From positions 3,596,001-3,660,000 of the forward strand of contig CATOTF010000002.1 of assembly GCA_951813045.1 (NCBI GenBank): DNA of 64,000 bases, read 5' to 3'. The stretch comes from an uncultured Rhizobiaceae bacterium (GTDB lineage Bacteria > Pseudomonadota > Alphaproteobacteria > Rhizobiales > Rhizobiaceae). The notes beneath the pieces were generated by a model, which was not told the DNA's origin, did no database searches, and saw nothing but the letters and a program-made list of their open reading frames with translations. Made by a program: the position numbers and the translations under genes. Shown here one piece after another: positions 7,225 to 62,611 of the stretch. The first letter of the stretch is position 1; each line of letters begins with the position of its first letter.

Positions 7225-9544
7225 CAATAATGCTGCGCGCAGCCGATGATACGGCCTGTTTTTCCTCTACTGACAAATCATCTACCTGCGCATCGGCAAG
7301 ACGTACAGTGACCTCTTTGTGAGCAAAATGTACTCCCTCACGGGCAAACAAGTCCTGAATACTCTCGTAAACCACCTTGCGGGTGACGAATTGTTCCCCG
7401 GGTTTGGTCATGAACTTCACGCGAATGATCATCGCGCTGTCTTCCATCTTATAAACACCTTGCGATTTGAGAGGCTGCATGAAGGTGTGACCAACCGCCG
7501 GATGTTCCAGCAGCTGTTGGCCGAGCTTCTTAACCAGCTTGCGCACCTTTTCCACATCGGTGTCATAGGTAACCCGAAGGGGTAATTTCATCATCACCCA
7601 GTCGCGGGAATAATTGGTCAATTGTTTGATTTCACCAAAGGGTAGCGTGTGTAATGCGCCCAGGTGGTGGCGCAGTTGGAATGAACGGATTGAGATCTTT
7701 TCAACGACCCCTTTCACCCCTTCAATTTCAACGTATTCCCCTTTGCGGAACGCATCGTCCATCAGGAAGAACGCGCCGGAAAATATATCACGAATGAGCG
7801 TTTGTGCGCCGAAACCAACTGCGATACCAACAACCCCGGCACCAGCGAATATTGGTGCAACATCAATTCCCATCCGCGACAGGATGACCATGATCGCGAT
7901 GGCGAATATGACGGTGATCAGGGCATAGCGAAAAATCGGCAAAAGCGTTGCCATACGGGTGGCACCAGCTCCACCCCCTTCGCCTTCCCCCATCAACTCG
8001 GAATCATCTGGGGCTCCCCCCTCTTCCAACATCTTGCGGTCAACAAATATGCGCACCGCACTGTAAGCTATCCAGCACAACACCGCCGACAAAATGATGT
8101 CCAAAGCCGCGGCCCACGGATTACCGTCATCCCCAATCGGCACGCCCCAAACGCGTGCCAACTCACCCAGAGCAAAAATACATACAATGGCAAGCGCGGC
8201 ATTTTCAAAAAACACCCGGAACATCGGCTGATATTCAAATATGGAGGCGGAAACTGAACTCAGCCCAACCTCCATTTCTTCACCTGCCTCTATATTGACA
8301 GCAGTTTCTTCTTCTTCACGCCGTTCCCGTTCAGCGGCGGCAAGCGCTTCAAATTTATGGATCCGGCGATTGTAGAACATCTGAATACCGATCAACACCA
8401 AACCGTAGACAATGATGGCCAGATAGAAGATTCCAAATGGTGCTGCGATAATCACACCCGGTGATGGCTGATCCAACGCAAGGCGAATGACAAAACTCCA
8501 CAACGCAGCAATTGCATAAACGAGTGTGATCACCGGCAAGAGGCGCGCCAGACTCGTTCGAAGCTTGAATAGGCCTGTCGAGGGGTCGGTCGGTGCAACG
8601 ATATGTTGCCACGCCTTCCAATCCCAAACTGTGAGAAACGCCAGTGCACCGGTAAAGAGTATTGCTGAACAGATCTGTAGAAATTTAATATTTTCGACAG
8701 TCACTCCACCGCTAATTCCAGCTGCAATCTGATCTTCCCCGGTAAAACCCACTGCCCGCGCAAATGCGGCAAATGCTACACAAATCGCAACACCTATATG
8801 GAAGTGGCGGTGCAATCTTACAGCTTCGTCGTCAGATAGGTTGACCAAACGGTATTTTGGCATCGCACCGGAGAATAGGTTCCAGGATATACCGTGGCGC
8901 ATGAACCGGTAAACGCAATACCAGGCGGCGATCTCGAATATGACCCGGCGCGACGGCTCGTGGCCGGAATCGAGAATAACCGCTGTAACCATCGTAACTG
9001 CGAAATAAATCAATACGTAAATTGCAGCAAAGAGCGCCCGGGCCAGAAGATAAGAAATCTTATCAGCGGTCGTTTCCGGATTTCCCTCACCACTGAAAAA
9101 CCCGCTTTTTTGAGTTCTGGTGATTATCGGTCTCGTCGCAAAATATCCCACAACCAACCCAAAAAGGGCCGTCAGCACCGCCCTGAACAGCCAGAACGAA
9201 GAGCCATCGGGGCTGGCGGCTGAGACTGTACCCATAATATTGGTCCACAACGTGGGAACTGAACCAAAAATCACCCTCAGGCGTTCACGCGCTTTAAGAA
9301 ACATCGCTGCCCTGTTGGCACCAGCTTCATCATCCGTTACGGACGTATTACTGTTGGGCTGTACGACGATAACGGTAGAGCCATCCTTTTTTGCCTCTTC
9401 CAGCAATAGCTCCAATGCCTTGGGCGTTTTTTCGCCATTTGAGGCACCCAACATGAATTGTGCGTGCGCTGTGATGGGTAAAGAAGGCGCCAGCACCACA
9501 ATCGAGAGCATGAGAAGTATGACAATTGAGTACAGCTTTTTCAT
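7166..9544 (-). CDS. Large MscS-family mechanosensitive channel
   Basis: 792-aa channel with a cleavable signal peptide (MKKLYSIVILLMLSIVVLAP … AHA), a periplasmic segment, about ten membrane helices, and a C-terminal MscS core. The pore-lining helix and beta domain read VGIAVGFGAQTLIRDIFSGAFFLMDD … GEYVEIEGVKGVVEKISIRS, followed by the cytoplasmic cage domain (about residues 640–770). It is much longer than the ~290-aa MscS of E. coli, resembling MscM- and Ynai-type proteins. Expected to release solutes on hypo-osmotic shock. A charged, Glu-rich stretch (EREEEETAVNIEAGEEME) forms a cytoplasmic loop. The FkbM gene starts inside its 3' end. Confidence 0.9.
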   Translation of the reverse strand: MKKLYSIVILLMLSIVVLAPSLPITAHAQFMLGASNGEKTPKALELLLEEAKKDGSTVIVVQPNSNTSVTDDEAGANRAAMFLKARERLRVIFGSVPTLWTNIMGTVSAASPDGSSFWLFRAVLTALFGLVVGYFATRPIITRTQKSGFFSGEGNPETTADKISYLLARALFAAIYVLIYFAVTMVTAVILDSGHEPSRRVIFEIAAWYCVYRFMRHGISWNLFSGAMPKYRLVNLSDDEAVRLHRHFHIGVAICVAFAAFARAVGFTGEDQIAAGISGGVTVENIKFLQICSAILFTGALAFLTVWDWKAWQHIVAPTDPSTGLFKLRTSLARLLPVITLVYAIAALWSFVIRLALDQPSPGVIIAAPFGIFYLAIIVYGLVLIGIQMFYNRRIHKFEALAAAERERREEEETAVNIEAGEEMEVGLSSVSASIFEYQPMFRVFFENAALAIVCIFALGELARVWGVPIGDDGNPWAAALDIILSAVLCWIAYSAVRIFVDRKMLEEGGAPDDSELMGEGEGGGAGATRMATLLPIFRYALITVIFAIAIMVILSRMGIDVAPIFAGAGVVGIAVGFGAQTLIRDIFSGAFFLMDDAFRKGEYVEIEGVKGVVEKISIRSFQLRHHLGALHTLPFGEIKQLTNYSRDWVMMKLPLRVTYDTDVEKVRKLVKKLGQQLLEHPAVGHTFMQPLKSQGVYKMEDSAMIIRVKFMTKPGEQFVTRKVVYESIQDLFAREGVHFAHKEVTVRLADAQVDDLSVEEKQAVSSAARSIIDAEEEAMAAAGGKASGSDR

Positions 9545-9612
9545 ATCTCTACATTCTGCAATAAGGTGTGAGTTCGAAACGTAGGGAGCATCGTTACTGA
9601 TAGATCACCAAA

Positions 9613-10260
9613 TTGTCATCCCCACCTTCCCAAACTTTACATTTTGGAAATAATTCTTTGATCCAGCACCCACTCATATTTGTACGCCACGGTGCCACCC
9701 GTTGGAACACGGAAGGGCGGTACCAGGGTGCGACAGATGTAGAGTTGTCACCAAACGGGGAGACACAGGCAAAGGCCAATGCGGAGTTAATCGGAAACCT
9801 GGTGGAACAGAAAACTCTTGATGCAACCGCACTATCGATCGTTTCTTCACCACTCAAACGGGCAAAAGACACCGCGCATATTGTTAATCAGACCTTTGAA
9901 AAACCTGCAATAATTCGTATCAACCGCGCATTTCGAGAATTATCTCTTGGCCGTTGGGAGGGCCTGACCAGCGCGGAAGTAAAATCCCGTTACTACGAAG
10001 AACGGAAAAACCGCAAATCCGACCGTTGGAACTTCAAACCTCTAAACGGAGAAGCGATGGCGGACCGATCGGTGGAGATCGAATCAGCATTGCAATCTAT
10101 CCCTGCCCACTCGATTATTGTGACCCATACAGTCATCCTGCGCATTATTTTCCACCTGCTTGGCGGCTATTCTCAAGAGCAAGCCGCCCTAGAACACCCA
10201 AAACATGTGGGGATATTGGTTTGGGATGGTGCATTATTACACAGACAGGAGGGAAATTGA
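9613..10260 (+). CDS. Histidine phosphatase family protein
   Basis: Phosphoglycerate-mutase-like (branch 1 histidine phosphatase) protein. The catalytic RHG motif is in LIFVRHGATRWNTEGRYQG, and the second active-site His is in IIVTHTVILRI. LSPNGETQAKANA and SSPLKRAKDTA are the other conserved blocks. No ATG start is available: TTG at 9613 gives 215 aa, and TTG at 9658 (with GGAA eight bases upstream) gives 200 aa and begins immediately before the first conserved strand. I list the longer form but consider the shorter one equally likely. Substrate cannot be told; candidates are phosphosugars, nucleotide-loop precursors or phosphoproteins. Confidence 0.8.
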   Translation: MSSPPSQTLHFGNNSLIQHPLIFVRHGATRWNTEGRYQGATDVELSPNGETQAKANAELIGNLVEQKTLDATALSIVSSPLKRAKDTAHIVNQTFEKPAIIRINRAFRELSLGRWEGLTSAEVKSRYYEERKNRKSDRWNFKPLNGEAMADRSVEIESALQSIPAHSIIVTHTVILRIIFHLLGGYSQEQAALEHPKHVGILVWDGALLHRQEGN

Positions 10261-10349
10261 GTATCTGCGCTTAACGTGCCCCCTCAAGTGTGCCAAAGTG
10301 CACATAAGGAGCCCGGTATACGGGCCGGGAGAAAGTAAGGGTCACAGTT

Positions 10350-12332
10350 TTGGCGCAAAGGGGCGCAGTCGCTAAAAATTCTCAAAAGGAGTGCACGCAA
10401 TCCGTGAAGATCGGGGAATACACCCACGATATTATACGGATTGATGATCTTCATTTGGTGATTGATTTAAAGGGCGCGGATCTGGAAGTGATCCGCGGCG
10501 CTTCATTTCGTATTCCTGCAGGTAGAACCGTCGCATTGGTTGGAGAATCCGGCTCAGGGAAATCGATCATTTCCCAAGCGATACTGGGTATATTACCCAA
10601 TGTCGCTCGCATTACCGGTGGAAGCATCTGGTATAAGGAAACTCCCACCGACATTCCTCTGGATTTAGCGACATTTGCCGACGATTCAGCTGAGCGCATT
10701 GATCTGCGTGGCGGCAAGATTTCGATCATCTTTCAGGAGCCCATGACGTCGCTGTCGCCGCTTCACACGATTGGCAATCAGATCGGTGAGGCATTGACCT
10801 TGCATCGAGATGTTAGTTCAGGTGATGTTCAGCAAACAGTAGTGGATATGCTCGAACTGGTTGGGTTTCCAAACCCGCCCGCTGCCTGGTCTATGTATCC
10901 GATGGAGCTTTCTGGTGGATTACGACAAAGAGCCATGATTGCCATGGCACTTGTCTGCCATCCTGCTCTATTGATCGCTGATGAACCGACAACCGCACTA
11001 GATGTTTCGATGCAGGCCAAGATTCTTTCTTTGCTGAAAGAATTGCAGGAAAAGCTTGGCATGGCTGTGTTGTTGATTACCCACGACCTGGGGGTCGTGG
11101 CAAATATGGCTGACGAAGTTGTAGTAATGTATCACGGCCAGATTATGGAAGCCGGCCCCCGCGAAGCCATTTTCCGCAATCCCCAGCACCCTTATCTAAA
11201 AGCATTGCTCAATGCCGTTCCAGACCTGTCGATGGGATATGATGAGAAACTGGAAAGCCTTCGTGACATCGAGCATGAAATTCCTGCTTCCATGAGCAAG
11301 GGTATTGAAGAACGCAAAACGCATGCCCACGAAACGCTCCTTCAAATTCGCCATCTGAAAAAAGAATTTACGACCAAAAAGAGCAAGGGATGGTTCGGAA
11401 ATGACAAAACCGTTGTTAAGGCGGTTGACGATATCAGTTTTGACGTCCGTCGCGGCGAATGTTTTGGTTTGGTTGGCGAATCCGGGTGCGGAAAAACGAC
11501 CACACTAAAAATGATCGTCCGTGCTCTGTCAGCCACTGATGGGACTGTGGAATGGATGGAGGGCGATGGCGATCAGCAAACGGTGACCGACCTGTTGCAG
11601 CTCAACAATCAGGGCATCAAGGAATTTCGCCGAAAAATCCAAATGGTGTTTCAGGACCCGTTTTCGTCCCTTTCACCGCGTTCTACAGTTTTGAATATTC
11701 TTAAAGAGCCCATGGAAGTTCATGGCATGGGTAATAAGAAGCAACAGGCTGAATATGCCGCTGAACTGATGCGTCTTGTGGGCCTCCAGCCCACATTCCT
11801 GGGCCGCTATCCCCATTCATTTTCGGGCGGTCAGCGCCAGCGGATCGGTATCGCGCGTGCTCTTGCGCTGCGGCCTGAGCTGCTGGTCTGTGACGAACCG
11901 GTTTCCGCCCTTGATGTATCGGTACAGGCGCAGGTTTTGAACCTGCTCAAACAATTGCAGGAAGAGCTGGGCCTGACCTATATTTTCATCTCCCATAATC
12001 TGGCGGTTATTCGATATATCGCCGACAGAATTGGCGTCATGTTCAAAGGCCAGCTCGTTGAAACCGCAACGCGGGAGGAATTGTTTGAAAATCCGATTCA
12101 TCCCTACACAAGAGCTCTGCTCGACGTTGTTCCCCATGCGGATCTAGACCATCCTTTGGATTTCGACCGCATTAACCGTGACATGGCCTCGGAAGGCCGC
12201 AATTGGACAGGGCCATTTTCGAATGAAGGTCATGAATCTGAAATGGACATGATCGCCATTACCGACAATCATCAGGTACGGGCCCAGAGGGGGACGGACC
12301 TACAAACAATACTTGCACACAAGCCAACATGA
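10350..12332 (+). CDS. Peptide ABC transporter, double ATPase (YejF/DppDF-like)
   Basis: Two complete ABC ATPase domains in one 660-aa chain, as in YejF. Domain 1 (about residues 25–275) has GESGSGKS, signature LSGGLRQRAMIAMAL and LLIADEPTTALD. Domain 2 (about 330–585) has GESGCGKTT, SGGQRQRIGIARAL and LLVCDEPVSALD. Both carry the HPYxxALL oligopeptide-family tail. It powers the importer encoded by the next three genes. The start is uncertain: TTG 10350 is listed; GTG 10404 (after AAGGAG but with 12-base spacing) is the alternative. The SBP gene begins 12 bases after the stop, so the four genes form one operon. Confidence 0.9.
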   Translation: MAQRGAVAKNSQKECTQSVKIGEYTHDIIRIDDLHLVIDLKGADLEVIRGASFRIPAGRTVALVGESGSGKSIISQAILGILPNVARITGGSIWYKETPTDIPLDLATFADDSAERIDLRGGKISIIFQEPMTSLSPLHTIGNQIGEALTLHRDVSSGDVQQTVVDMLELVGFPNPPAAWSMYPMELSGGLRQRAMIAMALVCHPALLIADEPTTALDVSMQAKILSLLKELQEKLGMAVLLITHDLGVVANMADEVVVMYHGQIMEAGPREAIFRNPQHPYLKALLNAVPDLSMGYDEKLESLRDIEHEIPASMSKGIEERKTHAHETLLQIRHLKKEFTTKKSKGWFGNDKTVVKAVDDISFDVRRGECFGLVGESGCGKTTTLKMIVRALSATDGTVEWMEGDGDQQTVTDLLQLNNQGIKEFRRKIQMVFQDPFSSLSPRSTVLNILKEPMEVHGMGNKKQQAEYAAELMRLVGLQPTFLGRYPHSFSGGQRQRIGIARALALRPELLVCDEPVSALDVSVQAQVLNLLKQLQEELGLTYIFISHNLAVIRYIADRIGVMFKGQLVETATREELFENPIHPYTRALLDVVPHADLDHPLDFDRINRDMASEGRNWTGPFSNEGHESEMDMIAITDNHQVRAQRGTDLQTILAHKPT

Positions 12333-12344
12333 ATTGAGAACACC

Positions 12345-14177
12345 ATGCACATAATTTTAAAATCACTTGTCACAGCCGGTGGATTGGCGCTCTTGTCCTC
12401 AACAGCACATGCAGGCACACCCGATGAGCCAAGAGTAGTGGACTTTAAAAGCCTCGAACGGTCTATCGGTAAAAGAGGTGGCTCCATCGACATGTTGATG
12501 GCAAAACCCAAAGACGTTCGCTGGATGACCGTCTATTCCGGTGCCCGTCTCGTTACTTATGATGAGTCTTTTCAACTGGCGCCCGACATTCTCAAGAAGG
12601 TCGAAAACGACGGCAATAAGTCCTTCACATTTCATTTGCGCAAAGGTCACCTGTGGTCAGATGGCCAACCGTTTACCACGGAAGATTTTCGGTACTGGTG
12701 GGAAGACGTCGCACAAAACGCTGACCTGTTCCAGGGCGGACCGCCGCGCGAAATGCTGGTCAACGGTAAAATGCCCAAGGTTGAGATCATTGATCCTCTC
12801 ACCATCCGCTATACGTGGGAAAGTGTAAACCCACTGTTTCTGACCGCACTTGCTGGTGCTCGCCCACTGTATATCTATATGCCTGCCCATTACCTTAAAC
12901 AGTTTCACGGGAAATATGGCGATCCCGACAAAATTGCTGCCCTGGTCGAGTCAGAACAGGTTCAGAACTGGTCGTCGCTTCACAAGCGTTTCGGTCGTCA
13001 GTACCGTCAGGAAAACCCGTCCATGCCATCCCTTCAGGCCTGGACTAACTCCACGGATCTGCCATCTGAACGGATCATCTTCAAACGCAACCCCAATTAC
13101 CATCGCGTTGACCCAGAGGGCACACAGCTGCCTTATCTCGATCAGGTCATTCTCAATCTCGCATCATCCTCCATTATTGCCGCCAAGGCAGGTACAGGCG
13201 AAAGCGATCTCCAGGCGCGCTACATCCGATTTGACAATTATGCATTCCTGAAAAAAGGCGCTGAAGAAGGCGGATATAACGTGCGGTTGTGGCCATCCGG
13301 TCGTGGATCAGAAATGACTTTGCTTCCCAATCTCAATACGAAGGATGAAGGCTTCCGCAATGCCTTCCAGGATGTACGCGTTCGCCGCGCCCTATCGATG
13401 GGTATGGATCGTTCCGAGATCAACGAAGCCATCTTTTTTGGGCTTGGTCGTGAAGCGTCAAACTCAGTTCTCCCTTCCAGCCCGTTGTACGAAGATTCCT
13501 ATGCAAACGCATGGGTTGAATATAACGTGGATAAAGCCAACGCCCTTTTGGATGACGCCGGTTTCGACAAGAAAGACGAAGATGGTGTGCGGTTAATGCC
13601 GGATGGCCGTCCATTCGAAATTATCGTCGAAACAGCCGGAGAGCAGAGCCAGGAAACCGATATCCTGCAACTTATCACGGATCACTGGAAAGACATCGGC
13701 GTAAAACTCTTCGTCAAACCTTCCCAACGCGACATATTGCGCGGACGCGTTTCTAACGGCGAAACAGTGATGTCGACCTGGCAAGGGTTGAACCGAGGTC
13801 TTGCAACACCAGAAATGAACCCCGAAGAGCTGGCTCCGGTTTCGCCTATTCAGGCGCAATGGCCGATGTGGGGAAACTTTTGGGAAACCAAAGGGGCGTC
13901 TGGTGAAGAGCCAAGCCTTCCTGAGGTGGCTCAATTGAGCAAATTATACGCGCAATGGCGTAATGCATCCGATTACAACACCCAGCATAAAATCTGGAAG
14001 GATATGTTGTCGATCTTCACGGATCAGGTTTACACAATCGGTATTGTTTCCGGAGGATTACAACCGGTTGTCGTGAGTAATAAACTGAAGAATGTTCCTG
14101 AAGAAGGCATCTGGTCTTTCGAACCCACATCCTACTTCGGGTATTACCTTCCAGATACGTTCTGGCTCGACGAATAG
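12345..14177 (+). CDS. Peptide ABC transporter, substrate-binding protein (family 5)
   Basis: 610-aa secreted or periplasmic binding protein with a signal peptide ending STAHA-G at about residue 23. The SBP family 5 hallmarks are present: TFHLRKGHLWSDGQPFTTEDFRYWWEDV, ERIIFKRNPNYHRVDPEGTQLPYLD and DVRVRRALSMGMDRSEI. Its size and YejF-type partner place it near YejA/oligopeptide binding proteins (dipeptides, oligopeptides or microcin-C-like ligands), but the ligand cannot be read from sequence. It is the second gene of the four-gene importer operon; the first permease starts 15 bases downstream. Confidence 0.9.
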   Translation: MHIILKSLVTAGGLALLSSTAHAGTPDEPRVVDFKSLERSIGKRGGSIDMLMAKPKDVRWMTVYSGARLVTYDESFQLAPDILKKVENDGNKSFTFHLRKGHLWSDGQPFTTEDFRYWWEDVAQNADLFQGGPPREMLVNGKMPKVEIIDPLTIRYTWESVNPLFLTALAGARPLYIYMPAHYLKQFHGKYGDPDKIAALVESEQVQNWSSLHKRFGRQYRQENPSMPSLQAWTNSTDLPSERIIFKRNPNYHRVDPEGTQLPYLDQVILNLASSSIIAAKAGTGESDLQARYIRFDNYAFLKKGAEEGGYNVRLWPSGRGSEMTLLPNLNTKDEGFRNAFQDVRVRRALSMGMDRSEINEAIFFGLGREASNSVLPSSPLYEDSYANAWVEYNVDKANALLDDAGFDKKDEDGVRLMPDGRPFEIIVETAGEQSQETDILQLITDHWKDIGVKLFVKPSQRDILRGRVSNGETVMSTWQGLNRGLATPEMNPEELAPVSPIQAQWPMWGNFWETKGASGEEPSLPEVAQLSKLYAQWRNASDYNTQHKIWKDMLSIFTDQVYTIGIVSGGLQPVVVSNKLKNVPEEGIWSFEPTSYFGYYLPDTFWLDE

Positions 14178-53696: not shown

Positions 53697-53972
53697 ATGG
53701 CACGAGGCCACACAGACGAATTCAAGCGTGAAGCGGTGCGTATTGCGCTGACCAGCGGACTTACCCGGAAACAAGTGGCATCAGATTTGGGGGTCGGCTT
53801 TTCGACGTTATCGAAATGGATACAACAATCCCGGCCTGATGACCTTCCACCATCGGTTGATATTGATCTGGCCAAAGAGAATGAGCGGCTTCGCAGAGAG
53901 GTTCGTCTCCTCACGGAGGAGAGGGAGATATTAAAGAAGGCAACAGTGTTCTTCGCGGGTCAAAGCAAGTGA
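53697..53972 (+). CDS. IS3-family OrfA (helix-turn-helix/leucine-zipper)
   Basis: 91 aa. HTDEFKREAVRIALTSGLTRKQVASDLGVGFSTLSKWI is the HTH_Tnp_1 DNA-binding domain and ENERLRREVRLLTEEREILKKATVFF the leucine-zipper end. AAGGAG precedes the ATG. It binds the element ends and is normally fused to OrfB by frameshifting; here the OrfB GTG overlaps its stop (GTGA). Confidence 0.93.
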   Translation: MARGHTDEFKREAVRIALTSGLTRKQVASDLGVGFSTLSKWIQQSRPDDLPPSVDIDLAKENERLRREVRLLTEEREILKKATVFFAGQSK

Positions 53973-54826
53973 GATTTGCGTTTGTCGAAGAACACAGGAA
54001 ACACGTTCCGGTGGATCGGCTTTGCCATATTCTGAATGTTACATCGCGTGGTTATCGTGCCTGGCACAACCGCCCTGTTAGTCAACGGCAGCGCGATGAC
54101 ATGGTGGTTCTGGCGCACATCCGTGAACAGCATCACTTGAGCCTTGGCAGTTATGGTCGCCCGAGAATGACGCAGGAGTTGAAGGAAGCCGGCCTTGCTA
54201 TTGGTCACCGCCGTGTTGGCCGCCTGATGCGCGACAACGGCATTCGAGTGGTCAGAACACGCAAATACAAAGCTACGACCGATAGCAATCACCGCTTCAA
54301 CATTGCGCCTAACTTGCTGGGGCGGAACTTCCAAGCGGATAAACCCAACCAGAAATGGGCAGGTGACATCAGCTACATCTGGACCCGTGAGGGCTGGCTG
54401 TATCTGGCAGTGATGATCGATCTACATTCACGCCGTGTGGTGGGTTGGGCTGTCAGCAACCGGTTGAAGAAAGACTTGGCATTGCAGGCTCTCAACCGGG
54501 CTTTGGCCCTTCGAAACCCACCGCCGGGCTGCATTCATCATACGGACCGTGGCAGTCAATACTGCTCTCATGATTATCAAAAACGAATGCGTGAACTGAA
54601 GTTTAAAGTGTCCATGAGCCGAAAAGGCAATTGCTGGGACAACGCCGTGGTCGAGACGTTCTTCAAAACACTCAAAGCCGAACTCATCTGGCGCGGCACA
54701 TGGCAAACACGACAGCAAGCAACCGACGCCCTGTTCCAATACATCAACGGCTTTTACAACAGCCGCAGAAGACACTCAGCAATAGGAGGAATGTCGCCCA
54801 TCAAATTTGAACGAAAAACGAGTTAA
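53969..54826 (+). CDS. IS3-family OrfB transposase (DDE)
   Basis: 285 aa with an HTH_21 region and rve integrase core. The catalytic residues are Asp133 (WAGDISYI), Asp193 (HTDRGSQYCS) and Glu229 (CWDNAVVETFFKTLK), with the family's 35-residue D–E spacing. The reading frame is intact, so the element may be active. Confidence 0.94.
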   Translation: MRFAFVEEHRKHVPVDRLCHILNVTSRGYRAWHNRPVSQRQRDDMVVLAHIREQHHLSLGSYGRPRMTQELKEAGLAIGHRRVGRLMRDNGIRVVRTRKYKATTDSNHRFNIAPNLLGRNFQADKPNQKWAGDISYIWTREGWLYLAVMIDLHSRRVVGWAVSNRLKKDLALQALNRALALRNPPPGCIHHTDRGSQYCSHDYQKRMRELKFKVSMSRKGNCWDNAVVETFFKTLKAELIWRGTWQTRQQATDALFQYINGFYNSRRRHSAIGGMSPIKFERKTS

Positions 54827-54864
54827 ACGAGAACAGGATGCGGAATTAATACGGGACAAGTCCA

Positions 54865-55222
54865 GATCGCTCTCTAGGAGGCGACCATGGCGGTTCTTGG
54901 AGAAGGTTGATTGATCAGGAACAGGATCGCCCAGATCAAGACGGCAAAACCACCGATAAGCAAGGTTCACATGAACCTCATCGCACAATCTTCGCTCAGA
55001 CCAGATGCCCATGATGTATCCCACCAACAGCATGCGGATCATCAACTCAGGATCAACCGAAGGGCGGCCAATATGACTGTAAATTGGGCGCAAGTGCGAA
55101 CGCATATCATCAAGATCAACAAACCGGACGATTGACCGCAATAGATGATCATCAGGCACATGGTCTTCGAGATTGAATTCGTAAAACAAAGCCGCTTGAA
55201 ATTCCCGACGTGGTCCCAGCAT
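54865..55222 (-). pseudogene. IS5/IS1182-type transposase, 5' fragment
   Basis: N-terminal ~118 codons only: MLGPRREFQAALFYEFNLEDHVPDDHLLRSI, HIGRPSVDPELMIRMLLVGYIMGI and SERRLCDEVHVNLAYRWFCRLDL … DQSTFSKNRHGR, the DUF772 region of IS1182-like transposases. It is cut at the IS3 right end (54864/54865); its catalytic half is absent from the window. ATG 55222 is the conserved start; the frame is open to 55243. Confidence 0.82.
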
Positions 55223-55443
55223 CGCATCAATCTCCCAAATCAATGGGAAAACTGAATCAGCTAATGATGATTACCACAAGACCGCCTTTTTCATCAAAAT
55301 CAACCAATAGCAGTCGTTTATTGCTTTGCATCAGCGGATCTACCGAGCTTTTTTCGGCCGATTAAATGATGTCGCTATTTGGTCATCCTATTATATTAAT
55401 TGTCCAAGCGAGACAACCGAACCGACTGTGGGTAAATGCAGGG

Positions 55444-56433: not shown

Positions 56434-58734
56434 TTATCGCCAGAGTTTTTCATCTCCAGTGTACTGAGAACCTGGCAGCGCTCCGTTGCTTGTGAATGCG
56501 TCCAGAACATTGTGCATCACGGTTCCAACGTTATTCTCGCCGCCTTTACATGGCAAGGCTTGCGACCAGGCGATTGAGCCTGCCGCAAATACTGCCCCGT
56601 TATTAGCTGTGCTGAAATAAATCATATCACCGCGAACCTGAGGGTCCTGACTGCCACCGCGACCGGGAAAGGCGTAAGTGACCTCTTCTGAGACCAGCGG
56701 GTAATTATCCGTATGATTGATGGAGGCTGCCAACAACAATGTGTGGGGTGGTGTGCCGAGCGCGAGGTCGTAACGGTCCAGTTCAACACCGGCGGCACCG
56801 CCAAGGGCCAGGCCAAAATCGCCGATGAGTTCTTCATCGCCAACGCCTTTGAAAATCCAGGCTACCCGTTTATGGAAACTGTCCGGCATGCGCTCGAAGG
56901 GTTCTGCGCGGTCCATCCCTTCAGTGGTAAAACCCAACCCAACGAGTTTTTGCGGGGGCCGCCCCCTTGAACGCCAAAGACCGGAACGTTCCCCGGATGA
57001 GGCGAGATAACCTTCTCCAGCTTCTGCCTGCCAAGCCCGCGAGCCCGCATCCAGTTTACGCACTTCAATGCATGCCGGGTCGTCAGGACAGGTTGCGGTG
57101 ACCCAGTAATAGCCATTGCCACCCAGATACATCACGCGGCCACCTTGGGTAAGATATTCTTCCGTGGCGTCCAGCATGGTTTCGGAATAATATTCAGGAT
57201 GGGTGACGTTTATGATGGTTTTATAAGGCGATAATGCTGCCGTGCCTTCCCGGTCCAGATCATGATCGGTGATCAGATCATAGTCATAGCCAGCATGTTC
57301 CAGCCACCAGAGCAGAGATAAATCGGCGGGCAAGGCCCAGGGAAAATTCATCCCGGCCATCCGGTAGCCGGGGCGGATATTGACAATGGGTCGCTTCCAA
57401 CTGGAAAAACAGACGCCCGCACCATCGGAATGGTGATCGTAGGTCGAGAGGCCGAATTCCTGCAGCTTATTGTATTCCAGATCATCGCCGGAGATCACCG
57501 GCGTATGCGCGACAATTGCCTGGGCGATTTGGGCATCGAAACTTAAATGCTCGTTGGCATATGCAAGATACGTAAATGTTGACATTTGAACCGCAACTTT
57601 TGCGCGCGGCTTATCGGGTCTGATGATGACGGGAATCCGGTCAACTGCATCCCCTGAGGTGATCTTCAACGCGTAGACACCGGATCTTAAATTCGCGGGT
57701 GGTGTCCAACTGATGTTCGGTTCCCAGGCACAATCAGTCAACGCATCGTCGTGAAATGCAACACCGCCGTATTGAGAAGGGTTGAGGCGAAAACTGTCGT
57801 CACGACCTTTCCAGTTCCAACCGGTCATCGCACGCACGGGCCGGTTTACACCATGGGCATTCAACCCATACGGTCCGGTGTCTTCGAAAGTTGATCCGAT
57901 ACCGGTATCGCTGAACCCGGCTGTTGTATCCCAAAAAGCAATTGGGTCATCCGGTTGGTTGCCACTACTAATGGCGTCAATTTCTTCACCATCTAAAGCA
58001 CGCCCAACAATTCCGGGCCGGTCAATCTTGCCATTGTACAACATGGATACGAAACGGCCCCGTTCGGGGTTTTCTTCATGCGAACCGGCGATGATAAAAT
58101 CTGCATCGCTGTGTTTGGGAACAGGGCGCAGTTTTTCGCTCACATGGGAATTGTGATCATAGGGTGACACGGGCCCGATATGGGAATTCCAAGAATTCTG
58201 TACATCGATCTGGCGTAAATGCGCTTTGCCTGATTTTGGGTCGTACGTTGCGCAGGCCAATACCCACACTTTGGGTATGAGCGGAGCGTCAGCCGTAACT
58301 TGATCGACTGTCTTTCCGTCCCCAATCCAAAACTCAAGCTTACCTTCCGGGTTGATACCCAACGCGTAGCCCATTGATTTATCAACCGACCATCGCCCCA
58401 TAATCGTCTGCCGTACCCCTTGCGGCATGGACGGCCAGATGAATGCATAGATCGTAAGCGGGCTGGCGAGGGCCAGAAGATTTTGTGCGTCGTCGACCCG
58501 CGCAAATGACCCGTTTTGCGTGTATTGACGCTTAACGGGCAGCTTTGCTGGAACATCGCTTACGATGCTTTCTTCAATGAAGCCTGGACCATCAGGGTTG
58601 AAGTCGCCATGAACAAGACGCACAATTTCAGCACTCACCTCGCTGGTGCCTTCAGCTGAAATCATGAAATTTATCGGTTTACCGGCCTGCGCAGAAAAGG
58701 GGTCACAATAACCGAATAGGCGAATATCTGTCAT
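56434..58734 (-). CDS. dmfA2: N,N-dimethylformamidase large (catalytic) subunit
   Basis: 766 aa, standard length. DMFase hydrolyses N,N-dimethylformamide to dimethylamine and formate in the cytoplasm. The published Paracoccus enzyme binds iron through two Tyr and one Glu (Tyr399, Tyr440, Glu521 as I recall); the equivalents here are Tyr392 in FTYLAYANEHLSF, Tyr432 in GLSTYDHHSDGAG and Glu514 in VTHPEYYSETM, at constant offset. An N-terminal lectin/jelly-roll-like region (about residues 90–250) is typical. It starts two bases after the fused permease/small-subunit gene stops. The true substrate could be another small N-substituted amide. Confidence 0.88.
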   Translation of the reverse strand: MTDIRLFGYCDPFSAQAGKPINFMISAEGTSEVSAEIVRLVHGDFNPDGPGFIEESIVSDVPAKLPVKRQYTQNGSFARVDDAQNLLALASPLTIYAFIWPSMPQGVRQTIMGRWSVDKSMGYALGINPEGKLEFWIGDGKTVDQVTADAPLIPKVWVLACATYDPKSGKAHLRQIDVQNSWNSHIGPVSPYDHNSHVSEKLRPVPKHSDADFIIAGSHEENPERGRFVSMLYNGKIDRPGIVGRALDGEEIDAISSGNQPDDPIAFWDTTAGFSDTGIGSTFEDTGPYGLNAHGVNRPVRAMTGWNWKGRDDSFRLNPSQYGGVAFHDDALTDCAWEPNISWTPPANLRSGVYALKITSGDAVDRIPVIIRPDKPRAKVAVQMSTFTYLAYANEHLSFDAQIAQAIVAHTPVISGDDLEYNKLQEFGLSTYDHHSDGAGVCFSSWKRPIVNIRPGYRMAGMNFPWALPADLSLLWWLEHAGYDYDLITDHDLDREGTAALSPYKTIINVTHPEYYSETMLDATEEYLTQGGRVMYLGGNGYYWVTATCPDDPACIEVRKLDAGSRAWQAEAGEGYLASSGERSGLWRSRGRPPQKLVGLGFTTEGMDRAEPFERMPDSFHKRVAWIFKGVGDEELIGDFGLALGGAAGVELDRYDLALGTPPHTLLLAASINHTDNYPLVSEEVTYAFPGRGGSQDPQVRGDMIYFSTANNGAVFAAGSIAWSQALPCKGGENNVGTVMHNVLDAFTSNGALPGSQYTGDEKLWR

Positions 58735-58736
58735 GA

Positions 58737-59102
58737 TCAGCTTTCCAAAAGATCGTTCACACGGAGCAGGAAGACCGCATGATAGGCTTCCCTGATTTCT
58801 GTATACTCCCGGTCATCCACAACGCGGGGCGGCATGCCCCGTTGGCCGGATACGGCCATCACCCGGAACCGTTCTTCTGAAGGAACCATGCGATGTATCA
58901 CATATTTATCTGCCATTTCCGCACGTCGAAAATGATTGAGAACCCGGGCAAGTGCGTCTGAATGATGGCCAAGCGGGTCGAGCCGATGTTCCTCGATTAA
59001 CTCCGGAGATATCAGCTTCTTGAGCCGGTCGCGCAGGCGTTTGTTGAAGCGTCGATAATAAAGTTCCTGTTTGTCGTGTATTTCGGTGGCTTCTTCGGGC
59101 AT
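58737..59102 (-). CDS. dmfA1: Possible free DMFase small subunit from an internal in-frame start
   Basis: ATG 59102 with GGGAGG (59110–59115) seven bases upstream would give a 121-aa protein (MPEEATEIHDKQELYYRRF …), essentially the length of the stand-alone small subunit of known α2β2-type DMFases. It is the same frame as the permease fusion. Whether it is used, in addition to the fusion, cannot be told from sequence. Confidence 0.5.
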   Translation of the reverse strand: MPEEATEIHDKQELYYRRFNKRLRDRLKKLISPELIEEHRLDPLGHHSDALARVLNHFRRAEMADKYVIHRMVPSEERFRVMAVSGQRGMPPRVVDDREYTEIREAYHAVFLLRVNDLLES

Positions 59103-60263
59103 AGCTTCGCCTCCCTTCTCGGTACGGAGGGCACGGCGCTCTCCTGACTTGCGTTTTCTAAAATCTCGAAATTGCTCACGGATGCCGGTTAGTCCCTCGC
59201 GCGCAAAGATTGTGACAACGATCATGATGACCGCAACCAGAATGATACGGGGTGGGCCCAGTTCGATCAGGCCCTTGTCAATCAAGGTGACAACAGCCGC
59301 CCCAAGCACCGCTCCTTCCGCCCGACCCAAACCGCCAATCACCATCATCGCGAACAACAATAGCAGTTGATCGAGCGAGAATATTTGCGGCGAGATTGAA
59401 CGGAAATACATGGCGTAGAATGCACCAACCACACCGAGTGCCGCTGACGAAATCACAAACACCATCAGTCTGGCGCGACGAAAGTCGATCCCGATAGCTT
59501 CGGCAAATGCTTCGTCTTCGCGGGATGTTTTTGCGACACGCAACAACATGCCAAGACGCTCGGAATTCACCAGTCGCCAGACAAGAAGCGCGCCAAGCAG
59601 CAATAAGAATGCGCCAGCAAACCCCAACAAAAGGCCGGGGCGTTGTAAAAACCAGTCTTTCGGGATGAAACTATCGACGTTCGTTATTGCCCCGCCGGAC
59701 TGCGTCAATGCACGAAGCTGCGTGACAAAAACCCTGCAGATTTCCGCAACTCCCATCGTTAGAAGCGCATAGTATAATCCGTCCAATCGGGTGGAAGGTG
59801 CCGCGAGAATCGCCCCAAATATGAGGCCCGCTAAGGGCCCTATTAACAACATGAACGGCCAGGGAACTCCGAGATATACATTGGCCGCTGCCGCCACATA
59901 ACCGGCGGCACCTACAATTGCCAAAGTTGCCAGCGAGAATATTCCAGCAGTTCCAACAATAAGCGTCCACAGCACATTGATGGCGGCATAAATGCAAAAG
60001 ATCGATACGACGGAAATCATCGAGTTTGGAAGGAACGGTGTCACAGCAACAAGGGCCGACAATCCTAATGTCCACCACAGCGGCTTCTTGTCGACAAGGA
60101 TCCGTTCCCGTTTCAGCGTTTTTGGGTTGTGCACATCGCGCCATTTGAGCCAGTGGCGTTTCGATCCGGGCAGGCGAGCCCGGTTCCGCTCTTCGACGCC
60201 GGTGGGTTTGAGACGCCATTCCCAGGACCTGCGCCCGACTTTATGGTAGCGGATCTGCGTCAT
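58737..60263 (-). CDS. LivM-type ABC permease fused to the dimethylformamidase small subunit
   Basis: 508 aa. Residues ~1–375 are a LivM permease: basic N-terminus, ~9–10 helices, LDGLYYALLTMGVAEICR, the EAA-type loop LRVAKTSREDEAFAEAIGIDFRRARL and MVIGGLGRAEGAVLGAAVV. After a basic linker, residues 388–508 form a DMFase small-subunit (DmfA1) domain: YYRRFNKRLRDRLKKLISPELIEEHRLDPLGHHS, VLNHFRRAEMADKYVIHRMVPSEERFRV and EIREAYHAVFLLRVNDLL, resembling the 132-aa free DmfA1 (…EEAMHAVFLRRIEDV). There is no stop between the parts. Start overlaps livH by four bases (ATGA). A strong internal start at 59102 could also release a free small subunit. Confidence 0.85.
   Translation of the reverse strand: MTQIRYHKVGRRSWEWRLKPTGVEERNRARLPGSKRHWLKWRDVHNPKTLKRERILVDKKPLWWTLGLSALVAVTPFLPNSMISVVSIFCIYAAINVLWTLIVGTAGIFSLATLAIVGAAGYVAAAANVYLGVPWPFMLLIGPLAGLIFGAILAAPSTRLDGLYYALLTMGVAEICRVFVTQLRALTQSGGAITNVDSFIPKDWFLQRPGLLLGFAGAFLLLLGALLVWRLVNSERLGMLLRVAKTSREDEAFAEAIGIDFRRARLMVFVISSAALGVVGAFYAMYFRSISPQIFSLDQLLLLFAMMVIGGLGRAEGAVLGAAVVTLIDKGLIELGPPRIILVAVIMIVVTIFAREGLTGIREQFRDFRKRKSGERRALRTEKGGEAMPEEATEIHDKQELYYRRFNKRLRDRLKKLISPELIEEHRLDPLGHHSDALARVLNHFRRAEMADKYVIHRMVPSEERFRVMAVSGQRGMPPRVVDDREYTEIREAYHAVFLLRVNDLLES
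59110..59115 (-). promoter_or_regulatory. Internal Shine-Dalgarno at the permease/small-subunit junction
   Basis: GGGAGG, seven bases before ATG 59102, inside the fused gene. A site this good inside a coding region, exactly at a domain boundary, looks like the former ribosome-binding site of a separate dmfA1 gene. Confidence 0.6.
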
Positions 60264-61186
60264 TCTCGCGTGTCATCCAATAAGCCGCCAATGCCACGCG
60301 GACGGATAATCAATACGGCGATGATGAACAGGAAAGTGGCAAACAGGACATAGCGTTGCCCCAGATAAGGTATCGCGCCGACAATCGCCTCCAAAAACCC
60401 GACCAGTAAAGCACCGATAAGGGCACCGGGAACGGATCCAAGCCCTCCCAATAGCGCAATGGTCAGGCCTTTAACCAGCGGGATAACACCGGCGGTCGGA
60501 CTGACAAAAATGGTTTGGCTGAGCAAAGCTGCCGCCATGCCCGCCAGCGCGCCCGTCAACATAAGCACCGGCAAGGCGGTGACCTGACGCGATATCCCGG
60601 AATAGGCCGCCCCTTCCGCGTTTTGCATCATGGCCCGAACCTCAAGGCCGCGTCGTGAATAGCGAAGCCAAGCAAGGGTAAGCCCCATGATGACCGCCGC
60701 ACCAACAATAGTCCCTGCCTGATCAAAACGGATTTTTGTCCCCCATACCTCCCAGCGCCCGAACCCGAATATCTTAGGAAGTCCTCGGTTCCGGGGGCCG
60801 AACATCCAGAGCAACCCCTGAACTGACGCAATATTAAGACCGAGGGTGATGATCAATGCACGAACCTGAAAATTCGGTTTGTCGTGGATCGGCAAAAAAG
60901 CCAGCAGGTAAATAATCACGCCGCATAGCGCACCGGTAATCAATGCGGAGGCAACCAATGTCCCCGCCATCAGCGTGCTTGCCAATACGGTTTTGCCAAA
61001 TGTCGCAGCGACCAACGGTTTTACCGCGCCCGTGACCAACCAAGCTGCATAACCAGACACCGCAAAAGTAGCGCCGTGAGACATATTGATAATGCCGACC
61101 GAAGACCACAGAATTGATATTCCTACAGCCATTAACGCATAGATCGCTCCCAAATTAAGCGCGTAGACGATGAGCCCCAAATCCAT
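60260..61186 (-). CDS. Branched-chain-amide-type ABC permease (LivH-like)
   Basis: 308-aa LivH-type permease with about eight helices: NLGAIYALMAVGISILWSSVGIINMSHGATFAVSGY at the N-terminus and IPLVKGLTIALLGGLGSVPGALIGALLVGFLEAI near the C-terminus, both family hallmarks. Starts one base into the livF stop region and overlaps the fused livM start by four bases, so livF–livH–livM are tightly coupled. It forms the membrane channel with the fused permease. Confidence 0.92.
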   Translation of the reverse strand: MDLGLIVYALNLGAIYALMAVGISILWSSVGIINMSHGATFAVSGYAAWLVTGAVKPLVAATFGKTVLASTLMAGTLVASALITGALCGVIIYLLAFLPIHDKPNFQVRALIITLGLNIASVQGLLWMFGPRNRGLPKIFGFGRWEVWGTKIRFDQAGTIVGAAVIMGLTLAWLRYSRRGLEVRAMMQNAEGAAYSGISRQVTALPVLMLTGALAGMAAALLSQTIFVSPTAGVIPLVKGLTIALLGGLGSVPGALIGALLVGFLEAIVGAIPYLGQRYVLFATFLFIIAVLIIRPRGIGGLLDDTRE

Positions 61187-61881
61187 CAGGCCAACTCCAC
61201 ATGGCCGACGTCGCCGCGCAATCGTCCCGCATGCAGGCCGATCATTCGGTCAGTCCGCCCGGTGAGCAGGCTAACGTTTTGTTCGGCAATTATCATGGCC
61301 CCCGTGACGGGGAGAGCCCAAAGCGCTTCCATCACACTGGCGGAAATCTTGGGTGCGAGACCAAGCGACGGCTCATCAATCAGATATAGTTTGGCTTCCG
61401 TCATCAGCATTCTGCCAATGGAAACCATGCGACGTTCGCCACCGGAGAGCTTTCCCACCAATGCATGTTCGAGCGGCCTTAAAGGTGGGAAGATATCGAA
61501 AACCCCGTCGATCCGATCACGGCGTTCGCGCCAAGCGGACCTGGTATACGCGCCACATTCGAGATGTTTGCGCACTGACAGTCCGGGAAAAATTGCATCA
61601 CCTTGGGGTGCTACACCAATACCCCGTTTTACGAGTGCAGGTGTTCGTCGACCAGCGCCCAAGGATCGCGACCCGCCAATCTCGTCCCCTTCGAATTTGA
61701 TCGACCCTTGTTGCCAACCCGTCATATGTGTCAGCGCGCGAATGAGCGTGGTTTTCCCGTGACCGTTCAGCCCAACAAGGCCAAGCCGTTCACCGGCACG
61801 TACGGTGAGGTCAATTTCATGCAGAACCCGTAGCGGACCATAGCCCGCTGAAAGTTTACTGATTTCAAGTAATTCAGACAC
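61186..61881 (-). CDS. ABC transporter ATPase (LivF-like)
   Basis: 231 aa. Walker A GLNGHGKTT, signature LSGGERRMVSIGRML, Walker B LYLIDEPSLGLAP; AYTRSAWRERRDRIDGVFDIFPPL is the LivF-type helical region. The start at GTG 61881 has GAGGGTG upstream and overlaps the livG stop; the frame is open to ATG 61905. Its signature is complete, in contrast to its partner LivG. Confidence 0.88.
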   Translation of the reverse strand: MSELLEISKLSAGYGPLRVLHEIDLTVRAGERLGLVGLNGHGKTTLIRALTHMTGWQQGSIKFEGDEIGGSRSLGAGRRTPALVKRGIGVAPQGDAIFPGLSVRKHLECGAYTRSAWRERRDRIDGVFDIFPPLRPLEHALVGKLSGGERRMVSIGRMLMTEAKLYLIDEPSLGLAPKISASVMEALWALPVTGAMIIAEQNVSLLTGRTDRMIGLHAGRLRGDVGHVELA

Positions 61882-62611
61882 TGGCACCCTCGAAGTATGC
61901 GGCATTTACCCGTGGGTCATCAAAAACATGGGCGGGCGTTCCATGCGCAATCACTTCGCCCAGATCAAGAACAACACAGGCGTCCGCGACAGCCGACAGG
62001 AGTTCCAACCTGTGCTCGATCAAAACAACACCAATCGCATATTCGTCGACTAATTCGCGCAGAATTATATCCAATTCGTCGATTTCCGAATTAATCAACC
62101 CGGAGGCAGGTTCGTCCATCAGGAGAACCTTTGGCTCGCGCATCATTAGACAGGCCAGCAATAATTTTCGTCGATCAAAGGCACCTAAAGCAGCGGCAGG
62201 TGTCTCTGGATGGATATTCAGGTTCACCATTCGCGCTGCCCACTCGGCATCGTGGCGGCTTAGAAACGGTAGGTGAGATTTGCGTGCTGCGCGAAAGGTT
62301 TCCTCCACAGTCAAAGACGCCGGAACCACAGGGCTTTGATAGGTCCTTCCCAACCCCATTTGCGCACGACGGTGAAAGGGGGTCCGCGTAATGTCCTCAT
62401 CTTTCAGAATTACTTGCCCCTCATCCGGAGCATAGCGACCACAAAGAACTTCAAATAAAGAAGTCTTACCCGCGCCATTGGGGCCAACCAAGCCCATAAT
62501 TTCGCCCCGCTTTGCCATCAGTTCGACATTCGAGAGGATAAGCCTGCCGCCAAGCGACAGGCTTACACTTTTGCACCCAAAAAACATTGGCGGTAGGTTC
62601 CGTCCTACCAC
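61874..62611 (-). CDS. ABC transporter ATPase (LivG-like) with degenerate signature
   Basis: 245 aa, GTG start at 62611 inside the binding-protein stop region. Walker A GPNGAGKTS, Walker B VLLMDEPASGL and the LivG end GEVIAHGTPAHVFDDPRVNAAYFEG are present. Where LSxGxQR is expected the sequence is LGAFDRRKLLLACLM, so the ABC signature is altered. With an intact LivF, one of the two composite ATP sites would be non-canonical. Confidence 0.87.
   Translation of the reverse strand: MVGRNLPPMFFGCKSVSLSLGGRLILSNVELMAKRGEIMGLVGPNGAGKTSLFEVLCGRYAPDEGQVILKDEDITRTPFHRRAQMGLGRTYQSPVVPASLTVEETFRAARKSHLPFLSRHDAEWAARMVNLNIHPETPAAALGAFDRRKLLLACLMMREPKVLLMDEPASGLINSEIDELDIILRELVDEYAIGVVLIEHRLELLSAVADACVVLDLGEVIAHGTPAHVFDDPRVNAAYFEGASV

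Follow-up and report, generated by a model that had tools for sequence, protein, structure and literature searches.

The Fused Permease–Hydrolase Gene and Its Operon

The window analysed here, a stretch of 64,000 nucleotides from an uncultured Rhizobiaceae bacterium, contains on its reverse strand a gene (58737–60263) in which a LivM-type ABC permease and the small subunit of a dimethylformamidase (DMFase) are encoded as a single protein of 508 amino acids. The reading frame starts with an ATG at 60263 and extends to 58737 without an internal stop codon. Residues 83–350 (59214–60017) match the permease family PF02653 (BPD_transp_2) with 88 bits, well above the Pfam cut-off of 26.8 bits. A conserved basic linker with the C-terminal sequence EKGGEA (residues 354–387; 59103–59204) connects the permease to the small-subunit domain, which comprises residues 388–508 and, with the stop codon, positions 58737–59102. 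In a comparison of this domain with PDB sequences, the sole match up to an E-value of 1 was the DMFase small subunit 6lvb_B (E = 6.2e-9). The same structure was the top match in a Foldseek search with an AlphaFold2 model of the fusion (E = 1.3e-4, TM-score of 0.78 on the target). The model was built from 11 sequences and is poor overall (mean pLDDT of 57.5), with block means of 60–86 across residues 401–508; it is weak outside the small domain. A first-pass annotation of this DNA had proposed a permease that continues in frame into a DMFase small subunit, and this is confirmed by the open frame, the PF02653 match and the agreement of the C-terminal residues with the DmfA1 structure in both sequence and fold. 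At E ≤ 0.001, the fusion itself is the only small-subunit match in its own genome, which is 98.84% complete.

The genes located 5' of the fusion on the same strand encode a LivH-type permease (PF02653; 60260–61186), a LivF/UrtE-like ABC ATPase (61186–61905), a LivG/UrtD-like ABC ATPase (61874–62611; both PF00005, with NCBIfam scores under the cut-offs) and a periplasmic binding protein (PF13458; 62605–63912, with a tentative start codon). Neighbouring genes in this group overlap by a few bases to 32. The locus thus has the composition of the HAAT-type ABC importers for branched-chain amino acids and urea, i.e., a binding protein, two ATPases and two PF02653 permeases. It differs from these importers in that one permease bears an enzyme subunit and in that the NCBIfam LivM and Urt scores stay far under their cut-offs; the branched-chain LivM model NF008450 reached 75.5 bits against a cut-off of 366.

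A LuxR-type regulator gene (PF00196; 55444–56415, reverse strand) is possibly part of the same unit, and a GerE gene 3' of the large subunit is also found in L034 and L120. The LuxR gene was considered as a DmfR orthologue and rejected, as BLASTP gave no real match (best E = 0.61). Just past it, at 53697–55243, the window contains open reading frames that by eye resemble IS3-type and other transposase genes.

The Large Subunit and the Predicted Substrate

The DMFase large subunit (766 amino acids; 56434–58734, reverse strand) begins 2 bases past the stop codon of the fused gene. It matches PF20254, and its residues 1–754 of 766 align with 6lvb_A (E = 4e-190), which establishes the identity that the first-pass annotation had assigned to it. 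In Paracoccus DMFase, iron is coordinated by Y399, Y440 and E521, and H519 and N547 are further active-site residues, as stated in the accessible text of PMC7686228. By alignment to this enzyme, the window's large subunit retains all three ligands, as had been claimed, in the form of Y392, Y432 and E514, and the equivalents of the His and Asn residues are H512 and N540 (numbering counted by hand). It is therefore homologous to the Paracoccus protein over its length, including the 2-Tyr-1-Glu iron site, and the small subunit is homologous to DmfA1. Among the fused rows of the large-subunit tree, 22 of 23 have an adjacent large subunit with retained active-site residues. The plasmid of Aminobacter sp. 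MDW-2 (L045) encodes two large subunits in tandem (9001–11343 and 11423–13744), the first of which has Ala at the position of the iron-ligand Glu in the alignment. In L120, a gene for a 383-amino-acid protein without a Pfam match (8912–10063) separates the fused gene from the large subunit.

The system shares with Paracoccus DmfA1/DmfA2 (PDB 6LVB) both subunits at the sequence level, the iron ligands, the catalytic residues and the side-by-side arrangement of the genes, but its small subunit is joined to an importer permease within an ABC operon. In contrast to the fusion in the window, dmfA1 on the P. aminophilus plasmid pAMI2 stands free, with a LuxR gene in front of it.

The position of Phe693, which narrows the substrate pocket in Paracoccus, is occupied by Tyr in the window's large subunit (alignment, counted by hand), and this exchange would be compatible with small amides as substrates. 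Dimethylformamide (DMF) itself, the substrate implied by the family name, is not supported so far. PF11927, a dimethylamine-demethylase family, occurs in 5 of the 11 genomes with the fusion, as against 14 of 23 comparison genomes that were hand-picked rather than matched for kinship, and no link to dimethylamine use was seen via this family. In addition, membership of the DMFase family does not entail activity on DMF: the DMFase-like acetamiprid amidase AceAB does not act on it, according to the available part of PMC11573777. AceAB is likewise a two-subunit enzyme, but its α and β subunits are separate, and a transporter fusion is not described in that part of the publication (PMC11573777).

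Distribution and Phylogeny of the Fusion

The first-pass annotation asked for the same fusion in other genomes, and it is indeed present there: in total, 28 loci were read, from Rhodobacteraceae, SAR116, rhizobial plasmids, metagenome-assembled genomes (MAGs) and further genomes. In 27 of the 28, no stop interrupts the frame across the junction and the small-subunit part; the sole exception is L037, a MAG with one in-frame TAA within the small part. An assembly artefact was rejected, since several genomes as well as complete plasmid records contain the fusion.

A scan of genome contigs with the large subunit recovered 11 loci, all of them with the fusion (including L037 with its stop in the small part). 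The small-subunit profile matched 21/385 genomes of the class, 5/398 of the phylum and 31/394 of the family, each count including the window's own genome. At E < 1e-50, 11 distinct genomes have a small subunit, with one match each, and it is fused in all 11. Four long frames over weaker matches were inspected by eye (L052, L064, L078 and L095) and dismissed as non-coding-looking frames in front of a free gene; G156 has a further long frame, of 903 codons. Matches to the small subunit were obtained for 39 records of the plasmid collection, and in 26 cases the E-value was at most 3e-32. Six loci from these 26 were fetched (L043–L045 and L113–L115) and all six are fused; five of the six are annotated, and there the gene for the binding protein is followed by those for two ATPases, the permease, the fused permease and the large subunit.

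The fused loci fall into two clades. Clade A (n = 17) comprises the window, seven other genomes and L032–L040, which derive from Rhodobacteraceae, SAR116 and other alphaproteobacterial MAGs and include the cultured Falsiruegeria and Tropicibacter isolates of L034 and L040. Clade B (n = 11) comprises three genomes, six Rhizobiaceae/Aminobacter plasmids and two MAGs labelled Acidiferrobacteraceae and Proteobacteria. In a large-subunit tree of 52 rows, a single branch (support 100/100) unites the 23 fused rows with L046, its only free row, and the neighbouring branch contains the DMFase of P. aminophilus pAMI2. The fusion is thus widespread, but inside one branch of the family. In L046 (8606–11298, a Caballeronia insecticola plasmid), small and large subunits are free, and the large one is nested in the fused clade B. 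Because of this position, the tree needs two changes for the fusion, and L046 may represent the later separation of a former fusion; the AU test gives no firm rejection of a clade made up of fused rows only (p = 0.051).

Conservation of the Linker and Membrane Topology

The linker of 34 residues is free of insertions and deletions in the 28 loci, and its mean identity between the clades (52%) is about that of the folded domains (membrane part, 49%; small part, 55%). Of the 16 clade-A pairs tested, most have nearly saturated synonymous codons; the exceptions are a few closely related pairs, for example L084/L085 and L034/L040. An indel-free linker that is conserved about as well as the domains it connects suggests that the fused protein itself is under selection. 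This bears on the possibility that the fusion is a functionless accident of stop-codon loss and that the separate parts do the work. The case of L046, where the small subunit is free and the large subunit still nests among fused ones, is in line with such an accident. It is nevertheless barely credible in view of the conserved linker across 28 loci, the near-saturated synonymous sites and the fused state of every genome with a close small subunit.

Lys and Arg residues are frequent both in the linker (11 in residues 355–387) and in the N-terminal extension (19 in residues 1–60), and the weak AlphaFold2 model allows a count of ten membrane helices. By the positive-inside rule, both the N- and the C-terminal end of the permease are therefore probably cytoplasmic, and the large subunit is assumed to be cytoplasmic as well.

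A Proposed Nested Start Codon in Front of the Small Subunit

The small-subunit domain begins with an ATG at residue 388 (59100–59102, reverse strand), a candidate for a second start codon from which a free small subunit would be produced. A Shine–Dalgarno (SD)-like stretch, AAGGGAGG (59110–59117, reverse strand), is located 7 bases 5' of this ATG. The ATG is present in 17/17 clade-A loci, where it is preceded by AAGGGAGG, AAAGGAGG, AAGGGGGC or similar stretches; in L039, an AT-rich locus from SAR116, the preceding stretch is ATGGAGAA. In all 17 clade-A genes, the duplex of this site with the 16S tail is the strongest among all in-frame ATGs. Furthermore, M388 aligns with the start codons of the free small subunits of L046 and L047 and, by eye, with that of L052.

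The EKGGE peptide at the end of the linker by itself yields an SD-like stretch. The small subunit could accordingly exist in the tethered form only, as part of a static importer–hydrolase complex, in which case the internal ATG and SD would be side effects of peptide conservation. Conservation of the linker is indeed seen at the protein level, and EKGGE is retained in clade B although the codons there mostly do not favour an SD, and even in L044, which has no ATG. Codon usage in clade A argues against such side effects. Gly384 is encoded by GGA or GGG in 16/16 clade-A genes that have Gly at this position, and among 32 conserved Gly columns it is the only one so one-sided, the next one reaching 76%. 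This bias is significant over 13 sequences (p = 7e-7, or 2e-5 after correction for 32 columns), with the near copies L085, L090 and L040 and also L039, which has Asn, dropped. Synonymous resampling of the seven codons before the ATG gave p < 0.05 in 4/17 clade-A genes and a combined value (Fisher) of 1.7e-4 over 14 sequences; the window alone is weak in this respect (p = 0.33). In terms of weakness, the RNA at the junction reaches the 69th percentile or higher in 17/17 clade-A loci and ranges from the 8th to the 96th percentile in clade B. Together with the SD rank and the coincidence of the ATG with the start of free homologues, these clade-A signals make a purely tethered form rather unlikely.

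In clade B, the junction ATG is found one codon earlier and at a shorter spacing, its SD ranks first in 5/11 and second in 5/11 loci, and the ATG is absent in one of the 11 (L044). Resampling in this clade gave p = 0.024 over six sequences, with four near copies dropped and L044 left out. A conserved ATG and SD with constraint beyond the protein sequence are thus found in clade A only. An SD-like stretch at a domain boundary could also act by slowing translation between the membrane domain and the soluble domain, which would assist folding without any initiation. This is highly improbable, considering that the ATG itself is retained in all clade-A loci, at the very position where the free subunit starts.

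The candidate nested start at residue 388 in the window's clade is a new observation. The conserved ATG with the best SD, the biased codons and the weak RNA structure indicate that the gene probably gives rise to a free small-subunit copy besides the fusion, and the enzyme of clade A, which keeps its own start and ribosome-binding site for the small subunit, is probably not tethered only. The estimated masses of the long and the short product would be near 57 and 14 kDa. The simplest history would be that the stop codon between livM and a separate gene behind it was lost, that clade A retained the start of this second gene, and that the start was weakened or lost in most members of clade B. 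Internal in-frame starts that yield a full-length and a short C-terminal form are known from Cas11b and SpaO, as described in the accessible portions of PMC11899642 and PMC13059759. In the present case, the long form would be a membrane transporter and the short, predicted product an enzyme subunit.

A Second Importer–Amidase Fusion Outside the Window

Beyond the window, a flotillin gene divergent from the DMFase operon (L116:1104–2726, forward strand; 64103–65725 in window numbering) is followed by the operon of a second importer, in which the second ATPase and an amidase form one protein. This fusion (L116:6792–9155, forward strand; 69791–72154 in window numbering) consists of 787 amino acids and combines the ATPase (PF00005 at residues 20–163) with an amidase of the amidase-signature type (PF01425 at residues 355–771). 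It is located about 6 kb from the first gene of the DMFase operon, on the opposite strand. The linker between ATPase and amidase varies in length. Among 151 relatives searched, the fusion is present at full length in 11, its own genome included, and matches to the amidase part alone start at residues 237–285. The Met at the start position of the free homologue L134 is retained in 12/12 aligned rows, and its SD is the best of the gene or among the best three in 8/12, the window's own genome not being one of these. Since both the enzyme and the transporter subunit differ from the DMFase case, this fusion has a separate origin, which suggests that the anchoring of amide hydrolases to importers evolved more than once.

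Proposed Function as a Tethered Hydrolase

The observations are best accommodated by an operon of six genes (binding protein, two ATPases, LivH, LivM–small-subunit fusion and large subunit) that would import and hydrolyse a small amide. The permease would end in the cytoplasm, where its small-subunit domain would dock the large subunit, so that the amide could be split on leaving the importer. In clade A, ribosomes would also initiate at ATG 388, and an α2β2 enzyme would be assembled from tethered and free copies; in clade B, where most members have a weak second start or none, the tethered form of the enzyme would predominate. As an overall explanation, including the tethered small subunit and the nested start in the window's clade, we consider this proposal to have a somewhat better than even chance of being correct. 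With an importer subunit and the enzyme's small subunit encoded by one gene, the enzyme is probably anchored at the entry point of its substrate in some marine and soil bacteria, and in the marine group this gene probably yields a free small subunit as well. The fusion, the domain identity and the iron ligands put forward in the first-pass annotation are supported. The putative tethering is incomplete as an account of clade A, where a start codon and a ribosome-binding site for the small subunit have been retained.

For this type of importer, a single LivM per complex would be expected. Paracoccus DMFase is an α2β2 enzyme, and its large subunit alone is inactive (accessible text of PMC7686228). 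If small subunits were exclusively tethered, each enzyme dimer would have to bridge two importers, and by analogy with the Paracoccus enzyme a free small subunit would help assembly. In that enzyme, the N-terminal helix of the small subunit is wedged between the large subunits (PMC7686228, available part), and hence the fit of a tether at this end is not certain.

C-terminal regulatory domains are known from other ABC importers, and the small-subunit domain might by now regulate or assemble the importer instead of tethering a hydrolase. This is quite improbable for a genome whose sole small subunit is the fused one, as the large-subunit gene comes directly after the fusion and its Paracoccus counterpart requires a small subunit. 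Returning to the importer–hydrolase proposal, a broader reading joins both fusions: the ratio of tethered to free copies, set by the nested start, would determine the amount of enzyme at the importer exit, and importer-anchored amide hydrolases would have evolved repeatedly. This combined reading is tentative, its chances being slightly short of even.

Direct hand-over from an importer to an enzyme has often been proposed and is difficult to test. Here, the link between the two is covalent, conserved and genetically separable, as a stop codon in the linker or the loss of the internal ATG would split the tethered from the free form. If the proposal holds, the tethered/free ratio would amount to a transport metabolon with built-in stoichiometry control.

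Annotation of Fused and Free Small Subunits

In line with the first-pass annotation, which knew of free DmfA1/DmfA2 pairs only, the tethered form appears to be unreported: among the open-licence papers searched, none that mentions dimethylformamidase also mentions an ABC transporter, and a search for such a permease–DMFase fusion found none in the open-licence titles and abstract beginnings among the matches listed. In the accessible part of a study on rhodopsin–flotillin clusters, both a DMFase and an 'inner membrane translocator' are named, but not a fusion (PMC10308929). The five annotated plasmid loci list the fused protein merely as a branched-chain amino acid permease; the hydrolase partner and the likely amide substrate have thus been overlooked, marine bacteria included. 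Conversely, a free 180-amino-acid small subunit on a Halalkalicoccus jeotgali plasmid (L048:8413–8955), in which no permease part was seen by eye, is annotated as 'inner-membrane translocator', a name perhaps taken over from fused homologues.
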